Of a stretch of DNA of 33,956 nt, positions 7,401 to 14,136 are shown in pieces. The notes beneath the pieces are model-generated. The model saw only the letters and a program-made list of their open reading frames with translations. It ran no database searches and was not told the DNA's origin. Position 1 is the stretch's first letter. Every line of letters begins with the position of its first letter. Made by a program: the position numbers and the translations under genes. Location of the stretch: contig CACOLY010000012.1 in assembly GCA_902628195.1 (NCBI GenBank), positions 1 to 33,956 of the forward strand, in the 5' to 3' direction. The DNA comes from an uncultured Pelagibacteraceae bacterium (GTDB taxonomy: Bacteria > Pseudomonadota > Alphaproteobacteria > Pelagibacterales > Pelagibacteraceae).

Positions 7401-7631
7401 ATGAAAAAAAACATACATCCTAATTACCATGTAATAAAAGTTGAGATGACCGATGGTACTCAATTTGAAACAAAATCAACTTGGGGTGCTGAGGGAGATT
7501 TGCTAAAACTAGAAATTGATCCAAAATCTCATTCTGCTTGGACAGGCGGTAAGCAAAAATTGATGGATAAGGGTAGAATAAGCAAATTTAATAAAAAATT
7601 TCAAAACTTCAAAACAGATAAAAAAAGCTAA
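7401..7631 (+). CDS. rpmE: Ribosomal protein bL31, zinc-free type
   Basis: This is a large-subunit ribosomal protein that bridges the subunits. The 76-residue product begins [10 protein letters not shown] and contains the STWGAEGD and WTGGKQKL segments followed by FNKKF, as in alphaproteobacterial L31. It has no cysteines at all, so it belongs to the form lacking the CxxC zinc ribbon. The nearby rpmJ product is also cysteine-free, so both zinc-linked ribosomal proteins are in their zinc-independent forms. The stop is directly followed by the ATG of trcR with no spacer. Confidence 0.95.
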
Positions 7632-8198
7632 ATGTCAAATGCTCCTTTAATGCCAATGGCAACAGCTGTGTGGCTTGTAGAAAATACTACATTAACTTTC
7701 AAACAAATAGCAGAGTTTTGTAAACTTCATGAAGTAGAGGTGCAAGGAATTGCAGATGGTGAGGTTGCAAAGGGTATCAAAGGTTATAACCCTATAATAT
7801 CTGGTCAACTTTCTAGAGAAGAAATCGAATTATCATCAAAAGACGAGAATAGACCTTTAGAAATAAAAAGTACTGACATTAAGATATCAAATTCTGAAAC
7901 AAAGATAAAAAAATATATACCTCTCTCAAAAAGACAAGATAAGCCGGACTCGGCACTTTGGCTTATCAAGCAACATAATATTTTAAAAGACTCTCAAATT
8001 GCAAGATTAGTCGGTATTACAAAAAACTCAGTCTCTGCAATAAGAAATAAAAGCTATTGGAACTATAATAATTTAAATCCTAAGGATCCTGTAGCTTTAA
8101 ATTTATTTACTCAAAAAGATTTGATTGATGCAATAGAAAAGGCTCAAAGAAGAATTAAAAGAGAGCAAAAACAAAAAGAAAAACTTAAACAAGTTTAA
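7632..8198 (+). CDS. trcR: TrcR/DUF1013 family cell-cycle transcription regulator
   Basis: The 188-residue protein matches the alphaproteobacterial DUF1013 family, named TrcR after a Caulobacter protein associated with RNA polymerase and cell-cycle transcription. The N-terminus has MPMATAVWLVENT and TFKQIAEFC, followed by VQGIADGEVAKGI. The second half repeats the theme with SALWLIKQH and a helix-turn-helix-like SQIARLVGITKNSVSAIRN, and a Lys-rich tail ends the protein. The two similar halves suggest a pair of helical DNA-binding-like units. It starts directly after rpmE. Family assignment is firm; its role in this organism is inferred. Confidence 0.9.
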   Translation: MSNAPLMPMATAVWLVENTTLTFKQIAEFCKLHEVEVQGIADGEVAKGIKGYNPIISGQLSREEIELSSKDENRPLEIKSTDIKISNSETKIKKYIPLSKRQDKPDSALWLIKQHNILKDSQIARLVGITKNSVSAIRNKSYWNYNNLNPKDPVALNLFTQKDLIDAIEKAQRRIKREQKQKEKLKQV

Positions 8199-8215: not shown

Positions 8216-8242
8216 TAGACATAAAATTGTAAAAATGATAAT
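8216..8242 (+). promoter_or_regulatory. Weak promoter candidate for rpsU and tRNA-fMet
   Basis: TAGACA at 8216-8221 and GATAAT at 8237-8242 are separated by 15 bases, short of the preferred 17. A start near 8249 would give a leader of about 17 bases containing the GGAGG. The 55-base gap after trcR is one of the larger ones in this series, which makes an internal promoter plausible. Confidence 0.3.
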
Positions 8243-8255
8243 TAATCGTTTTTTT

Positions 8256-8260
8256 GGAGG
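8256..8260 (+). promoter_or_regulatory. Strong Shine-Dalgarno GGAGG that sets the rpsU start
   Basis: A consensus GGAGG lies 5 bases before ATT at 8266. Most genes in the window have only weak AG-rich sites or none, so this is exceptional. A TTG at 8254 overlaps the motif itself and therefore cannot use it, leaving ATT as the start with correct spacing. Confidence 0.75.
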
Positions 8261-8265
8261 TATTT

Positions 8266-8460
8266 ATTAAGATAGAAGTTAAAGATAATAATGTAGAACA
8301 AGCTCTTAGAGTTTTAAAAAGAAAACTTCAAAGAGATGGTTTTTTTAGGGTAATAAAGTTAAAAAATACTTATGAAAAACCTTCTGAAAAGAAAAAAAGA
8401 ATTCTTCAAGAAAACATTAAGCGGGTTAAAAAGTTAAATAAACTTAAAAATAGAATTTAA
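8266..8460 (+). CDS. rpsU: Ribosomal protein bS21, apparent ATT start codon
   Basis: bS21 sits beside the anti-Shine-Dalgarno end of 16S rRNA and takes part in initiation. From ATT at 8266 the product is 64 residues, reading (M)KIEVKDNNVEQALRVLK, then KLQRDGFFR, then NTYEKPSEKKKR and a basic tail. Alphaproteobacterial S21 usually starts as MQVxVRDNNVDQALK, so the ATT start gives exactly the family's N-terminal length, with GGAGG 5 bases upstream. The alternative TTG at 8254 would add four residues but lies within the Shine-Dalgarno. No ATG or GTG is available in frame nearby. An AUU start is best known from infC, where it permits feedback control. The stop is 6 bases before the initiator tRNA. 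Confidence 0.85.
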   Translation: MKIEVKDNNVEQALRVLKRKLQRDGFFRVIKLKNTYEKPSEKKKRILQENIKRVKKLNKLKNRI

Positions 8461-8466
8461 TTATAC

Positions 8467-8543
<77 letters not shown>

Positions 8544-12884: not shown

Positions 12885-12995
12885 TTATAATAAAAAGATT
12901 GCCATTAAAACCAATACCAGGATTACAACAATTGTTCCCCACGTTACAAACTTGGTAAAATTATTCCATGTTTTTTTATGGTTTTCATTATCCAT
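12885..12995 (-). CDS. Small aa3-type cytochrome oxidase subunit IV-like protein
   Basis: I translated this 36-residue gene by hand from the reverse strand. It has a polar N-terminus (MDNENHKKTWNNF), then a TKFVTWGT segment leading into a single hydrophobic helix that runs to the C-terminus. This is the layout of the short alphaproteobacterial aa3 oxidase subunit IV family, in which a W-x-x-F/KF-x-x-WG motif precedes one membrane helix. In alphaproteobacteria such genes are often beside the pnt genes, which agrees with its place here: 5 bases after rpmJ and 7 before pntAa. Confidence 0.8.
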   Translation of the reverse strand: MDNENHKKTWNNFTKFVTWGTIVVILVLVLMAIFLL

Positions 12996-13000
12996 AAAAA

Positions 13001-14020: not shown

Positions 14021-14136
14021 GCCTGGCAACGACCTACTCTTCCATATCTTAAGATAAAGTACCATCGGCGCAGAAAGGCTTGACTTCCGAGTTCGGAATG
14101 GGATCGGGTATAACCCTTTCGCAATAATCACCAGGC
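14021..14136 (-). rRNA. rrf: 5S ribosomal RNA, separated from 16S and 23S
   Basis: The reverse strand reads as 5S rRNA: the ends GCCTGG and CCAGGC form the closing helix, and the conserved CCGATCCCATTCCGAACTCGG and GGTAGCGCCGATGGTA-type elements are present in slightly changed form, with GAGTAGGTCGTTGCCAGGC at the 3' end. Length is 116 nt. No 23S sequence lies within 130 bases upstream; instead a divergent glycosyltransferase gene begins the surface-glycan island. In described Pelagibacter genomes the main hypervariable region lies between 23S and 5S, and this fits that edge. Exact ends are set by the terminal helix. Confidence 0.96.

Follow-up and report, generated by a model that had tools for sequence, protein, structure and literature searches.

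Comparison among relatives shows that the gene for ribosomal protein bS21 (rpsU) of SAR11 bacteria has its predicted start at AUU, positioned by an extended Shine-Dalgarno (SD) sequence on a very short leader. The gene appears to begin at a 'wrong' codon, AUU and sometimes AUC, AUA or ACG. The position of this putative start, the conservation there of a codon other than AUG, GUG or UUG, the strong SD and the coupled evolution of codon and SD are each shown by comparison; from pieces of other systems, we infer that the arrangement may provide a feedback on bS21 synthesis. A sequence-only reading of the window (i.e., the whole stretch of 33,956 nucleotides analysed, from a SAR11-type alphaproteobacterial genome) had placed the rpsU start at ATT behind GGAGG, and had suggested that a message depending on SD pairing could sense ribosomes with or without bS21. 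Beyond that reading, the analysis adds AUG avoidance in other Alphaproteobacteria, ATG lineages without SD, a promoter with a leader of ~15 nt, and a linked initiator tRNA. No prior report of a non-AUG start of SAR11 or alphaproteobacterial rpsU was noticed in the open-access literature searched.

Start codon and Shine-Dalgarno in the window and across the order

The rpsU gene occupies positions 8266-8460 of the forward strand (64 aa plus stop; Pfam PF01165, Ribosomal_S21, E = 1.3e-15), with ATT at 8266-8268 as its start; 21 relatives have ATG at the same codon. Read directly from the sequence, the leader consists of GGAGG at 8256-8260 and TATTT at 8261-8265, followed by ATT, which bears out the coordinates and the five-base spacing of the sequence-only reading. 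The extended SD, GGAGGTA (8256-8262, forward strand), pairs with UACCUCC of the 16S 3' end with a duplex energy of -11.4 kcal/mol. This had been called the strongest SD in the window, and none of the 30 other window open reading frames (ORFs) of at least 80 aa, as roughly called, exceeds it. It is also unmatched in strength by 168 ORFs of at least 80 aa in 200 kb of genome G012, which is a sample and not the whole genome. Between the preceding stop and ATT, the sole in-frame ATG, GTG or TTG is the TTG at 8254-8256 (forward strand), whose G is common to the SD, again as had been read.

Strong SDs are rare before the sampled SAR11 ORFs, which were obtained with a simple script at a minimum of 80 aa. 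GGAGG precedes the start of 0/30 other ORFs in the window, 1/168 in G012 and 0/186 in G459. A 4-mer SD is present before 3/30, 31/168 and 20/186 ORFs, respectively, and in the control region of 7/168 (G012) and 16/186 (G459), i.e., weak SDs are above control in G012. When the window and 400 kb were scanned for GG(A/G)GG, the recognisable genes with GGAGG-N5-ATT were the rpsU of the window and the rpsU of G012. One other sampled ORF start has GGAGG, before ATG, and belongs to a decarboxylase-like gene named by eye (L292, 3443-4627, reverse strand). The anti-SD is intact in the window's own genome, whose 16S gene, identified by Rfam (L240), ends in TGCGGCTGGATTACCTCCTTT. The exact anti-SD pattern was found in 12/20 genomes, and among the remaining genomes the 16S end was not always located.

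Starts of rpsU were taken from 225 loci of the order Pelagibacterales, corresponding to 212 distinct loci. Given that the loci are best matches plus chosen genomes, and that the ATG lineage was sought deliberately, the proportions given here are not population frequencies. Genomes with no rpsU match (13/101, 31/296 and 99/399) are outside the counts, and six loci were left out of the count: the divergent second S21 genes L147 and L148, the frameshifted L219 and L220, the fragment L221, and L290, which has no gene.

Non-ATG starts (ATT, ATC, ACG or ATA) were found in 191/212 distinct loci, and each of these has GGAGG, GGGGG or AGGAG before the start. The other 21 have ATG in the equivalent position, with a strong SD in 0/21. 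In the window genus there are 148 ATT, 2 ATC and 5 ACG loci, every one with GGAGG except six ATT loci with GGGGG; all 21 ATG loci belong to this genus, and AGG is present in one. Other genera of the same family contribute 20 ATT loci, with GGAGG in 17 and AGGAG in 3. The 196 distinct loci of the family are therefore divided into 168 ATT, 2 ATC, 5 ACG and 21 ATG, and the combination of an ATT, ATC or ACG codon with a strong SD is present in 175/175 of its non-ATG loci. The second family of the order presents 15 ATA and 1 ATC, with GGAGG in all 16 loci; the exact start codon is assigned there without a confirming ATG relative. Neither GTG nor TTG was found at the start position (0/212 distinct loci of the order), and neither AUG with a strong SD nor non-AUG without one is among the 212 loci. 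GGAGG lies 5 nt from the start in 154/155 genus loci and 8 nt from it in the 16 second-family loci. The median duplex energy to the 16S tail is -12.2 for genus ATT loci (range -13.1 to -9.3), -12.0 for ACG and -1.1 for ATG.

Conservation of GGAGG and ATT across SAR11, which the sequence-only reading had named as its check, is what these counts present. The part of that reading which placed the start at ATT and tied it to the SD stands, strongly backed by its conservation and by the lack of this SD in every ATG-start locus of the order; the sensing it suggested is kept as a conditional proposal and weighed below. Annotation restricted to ATG, GTG and TTG likely mis-starts or misses SAR11 rpsU.

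Two of the removed loci, L219 and L220, are frameshifted rpsU genes in the assembled genomes G516 and G678, by error or as pseudogenes. Divergent second S21-like genes, perhaps derived from phages, are present in some assemblies (L147 and L148 in G057; also G451 and G476).

AUG lineages and other Alphaproteobacteria

A 70-tip tree was obtained from flanking and coding sequence of 28 ATG, ACG and ATC loci, 40 ATT loci (10 picked, 30 random) and two outgroups. On this one tree, four changes by parsimony separate ATG without SD from the rest. A first ATG cluster places 13 ATG loci beside one ATT locus, and in a second cluster of 13, five ACG loci with SD are interleaved with eight ATG loci without it. 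Both clusters are recovered in a 174-tip tree of the loci with enough upstream sequence, where placement is weaker. The main evidence is given by these coupled swaps and by the absence of both mixed combinations, which indicate that codon and SD function as a single unit and that selection in the genus disfavours full-strength rpsU initiation. The interleaving of the second cluster could alternatively be caused by the leader recombining as a cassette. This division into non-AUG with SD and AUG without SD suggests that ribosome composition has long been under a self-limiting control. Given that 21 loci have AUG without a strong SD, the device of AUU plus SD is dispensable, and the AUG/no-SD and ACG/SD lineages constitute a natural mutant series for the trade-off between SD and start codon.

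Loss of the anti-SD in the ATG lineages was considered and is not supported, as the ATG-lineage genomes G654, G004, G479 and G591 have CTGGATTACCTCCTTT. The exact anti-SD pattern has no match in the complete ATG-lineage genomes G459 and G656. One-mismatch matches in G459 and G454 have no rRNA match, so the 16S ends were not located there.

Outside the order, 40 loci of the class were picked among the best-listed of 326 matching genomes. Their rpsU starts, assigned by alignment, are GTG in 25, TTG in 8, ATG in 5 and ATC in 2, with an upstream in-frame ATG in 3/40 and a frame open as far as the retrieved sequence extends in 7/40. The rpsO gene was sought in 39 of these 40 genomes and in G012; 30 loci were returned and read, and ATG is the start in 30/30, at the aligned start in 28 and within two codons of it in 2. 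Hence, rpsU avoids AUG in Alphaproteobacteria outside the order (35/40), whereas rpsO does not. The SD of rpsU is also the stronger, with a median energy of -9.95 versus -5.95 for rpsO. All five AUG-start rpsU genes of this sample have a strong SD (median -14.5), so AUG plus SD is permitted outside the order and there is no strict trade-off everywhere.

A possible feedback on bS21 synthesis and its rivals

The position of bS21 beside the anti-SD of 16S rRNA would allow two locks on rpsU initiation. A 30S subunit without bS21 would form the full SD helix, and the poor match between AUU and the anticodon would then be tolerated; on a complete 30S with IF3, the SD helix would form less well and AUU would be rejected. 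bS21 would be made while bS21-free subunits exist, and its synthesis would drop once these are filled. We consider this negative feedback the likeliest mechanism, tentatively and at just short of an even chance. It is supported by all 191 non-AUG loci having a strong SD and 0/21 AUG loci having one, with four switches between the two states, and by the class-wide avoidance of AUG in rpsU (35/40) and not in rpsO (30/30 ATG).

Further support is drawn from systems described elsewhere. According to passages of PMC9976891, bS21-free ribosomes of Flavobacterium johnsoniae (Bacteroidota) prefer the extended SD of rpsU, which is autoregulated. SAR11 shares with that system an rpsU SD that stands out among the sampled genes, as well as an intact anti-SD, and the rarity of GGAGG before sampled ORFs, reminiscent of the autoregulated Bacteroidia rpsU in those passages, supports the two-lock feedback. 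The phylum, however, is another, the SAR11 start is AUU, AUC, AUA or ACG and co-evolves with the SD, the predicted leader is of ~15 nt, and some other SAR11 genes do carry SDs. Sequestration of the anti-SD by bS21, bS18 and bS6, which belongs to the Bacteroidota system, would be a further point in common. The -11.4 of the window and the genus median of -12.2 fall short of the Bacteroidota mark of -13 kcal/mol, which counts against the feedback, though the values were obtained with different programs and tail lengths.

As regards the second lock, sections of PMC5472188 state that IF3 spares AUG, GUG and UUG and disfavours other starts. The SD-linked codons AUU, AUC, AUA and ACG fall outside that spared set, and GUG and UUG are found in 0/212 loci, which also supports the feedback. 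The same sections describe infC, with AUU and IF3 feedback, and Streptomyces sigR, whose GTC start is repressed by IF3. SAR11 rpsU (191/212) is like these in conserving a start other than AUG, GUG or UUG in a housekeeping or regulatory gene, but its product is a ribosomal protein beside the anti-SD, not IF3 or a sigma factor. Under in vitro conditions, IF3 accepted nothing but Watson-Crick pairing at codon positions one and two (PMC10158994); the five ACG starts are surprising in this light, which counts against the feedback.

Extended SDs combined with non-canonical starts are also described for Staphylococcus aureus in extracts of PMC13009471, where AUU and AUA starts give ~10% of AUG expression and up to 30% in one case. 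In cvfC1 (AUU), ccpN (AUA) and infC (AUA) an extended SD directs the non-canonical start, as proposed here for rpsU, and in cvfC1 both are conserved within the group; these are, however, other genes, in a lineage described as relying on extended SDs. Those extracts further state that E. coli bS21 sterically hinders an extended SD helix, which, together with the intact anti-SD of the window's own genome, supports the feedback. A review gives the opposite sign (PMC10931766), with E. coli bS21 assisting or providing SD pairing, and this weakens it.

A wider claim is possible, though we place it appreciably below even: that the extended SD and the IF3-disfavoured start form a conserved two-lock sensor of bS21-free 30S in SAR11 rpsU, milder (GUG/UUG) in many Alphaproteobacteria and evolved apart from the Bacteroidota loop, that in Pelagibacter it stands directly before the initiator tRNA as one initiation-capacity unit, and that viral bS21 escapes it via AUG or UUG. 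By reading of the sequence, 33 viral bS21 loci have 20 distinct starts, 17 ATG and 3 TTG, with no ATT among them; that of pelagiphage HTVC008M is ATG. Given these ordinary starts, rpsU control may matter in infection. If the feedback is true, it is present in one of the ocean's most abundant bacterial groups and in a second phylum, with the start codon as a different second lock.

The main rival, which we consider doubtful but well beyond a marginal possibility, is a fixed set-point without feedback, in which a poor start with a strong SD, or AUG with no SD, would yield a modest constant rate of bS21 synthesis. E. coli pcnB would be the model, as its AUU start reportedly limits synthesis and we know of no feedback or SD coupling in it. 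A constant low rate gives the same coupling of codon and SD and accounts for both solutions existing, which weakens the feedback, as does the presence of a 4-mer SD before 31/168 G012 ORFs versus 7/168 in the control. It is, moreover, a known general trend that start codon and SD compensate for each other (PMC5622118). A fixed set-point does not readily explain why none of the 212 loci pairs GTG or TTG with an SD of medium strength, or why so strong an SD is found at rpsU but at few of the sampled genes.

Control centred on IF3 is unlikely. AUU would in this case tie bS21 synthesis to the ratio of IF3 to ribosomes, as in infC and sigR, and bS21 would be no sensor. Every SD-linked start in the order is outside AUG, GUG and UUG, as this would have it, yet the exceptional SD is not required by IF3 alone. 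The infC starts, all of them inferred, were read in 18 loci: GTG in 8/8 of the window genus and in 4 of other genera, ATG in 2, apparent ATT in L224 and L238, and ATA or ATC in the second family's L226 and L229. Outside the window genus, ATT, ATA or ATC is thus the inferred start in 4/10 loci, which favours such control.

Translation from the TTG at 8254, with ATT as an internal Ile codon, is very improbable and was rejected, since the comparison already contradicts it. An in-frame TTG is found at -12 both in the window and in 144/175 non-ATG loci of the family, where it is common because of the T run of the leader; it is missing at that position in 31/175, and no in-frame ATG, GTG or TTG exists at all in 27/175, nor upstream of ATA or ATC in 14/16 second-family loci. 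The TTG overlaps the SD, and the 21 ATG relatives have their ATG at the ATT position. If the codon were an internal Ile, ATA, which makes up 32.7% of the Ile codons sampled in G012, would be expected among the loci; at this position, 168 ATT, 2 ATC and 0 ATA are observed in the family (p ~6e-30, a naive value that ignores the relatedness of the loci), which counts against an internal codon. That ATT is a sequencing or assembly error for ATG is vanishingly improbable, with no supporting point found and 168 distinct ATT loci in many genomes refuting it.

Neighbouring genes, promoter and leader

The gene order is an inositol monophosphatase-like gene, rpmE (bL31; 7401-7631, Pfam PF01197), a trcR-like gene upstream of rpsU (7632-8198, Pfam PF06242), rpsU, and tRNA-Met, with rpmE, the trcR-like gene and the tRNA on the forward strand. 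The last is an initiator tRNA-fMet at 8467-8543, 6 nt past the rpsU stop (tRNA-Met by ARAGORN, tRNA by Rfam, C1:A72 from sequence). Its 5' 15-mer has one match, at up to one mismatch, in the window's own 93%-complete genome, and the tRNA lies 0-8 nt past the rpsU stop in 176/176 genus loci. A requirement for the linked tRNA was rejected, given that other genera keep ATT although 11/19 readable loci are without it. In the 16 second-family loci, the tRNA is absent beside rpsU in 6 and the other 10 are too short to tell. The anticodon-stem pairs, from sequence, are AU/GC/GC; the stem is TCAGG/CCTGA or CAAGG/CCTTG in the window and relatives, not three G:C pairs.

A sigma70-like promoter is predicted at 8216-8244 of the forward strand, with TAGACA (8216-8221), a 17-nt spacer ending in TG+A (8236-8238) and TAATTA (8239-8244). 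The form T(A/G)GACA-N17-TANNNN with TG before the -10, at a spacing of 17, is present in 152/155 non-ATG and 21/21 ATG genus loci, and a form of the element in 14/20 loci of other genera; shuffled sequence yields 0.16%. In non-ATG genus loci, 21-22 nt separate the end of the -10 from the start, and the leader is therefore probably ~15 nt long. In the window, the position of the -10 predicts a 15-nt 5' leader at 8251-8265 (forward strand), with transcription starting at ~8251 within a T run (8249-8255). No leader RNA was matched by Rfam in the rpsU leader at gathering scores.

A weak dyad followed by the T run overlaps the promoter at 8232-8252 of the forward strand (arms 8232-8237 and 8247-8252) and is perhaps the terminator of the upstream operon (trcR). 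In register S=12, 76.5% of cells are paired over 8 pairs and 129 loci, with one clearly covarying column pair; values of 0.62-0.81 are also attained in the adjacent A/T-rich registers S=13-16, so support for the dyad is weak. A regulatory role of the hairpin AAARTG...CAYTTT was rejected, as the predicted transcript start falls inside its 3' arm and covariation amounts to one column pair.

In 141/155 non-ATG genus loci, the T run where the transcript is predicted to begin has at least 5 T. It might enable reiterative transcription with UTP sensing, by analogy with E. coli codBA and upp. Elsewhere in the window, Rfam places a pntA RNA (RF01810) at 12938-12999 and a 5S rRNA at 14021-14135, both on the reverse strand.
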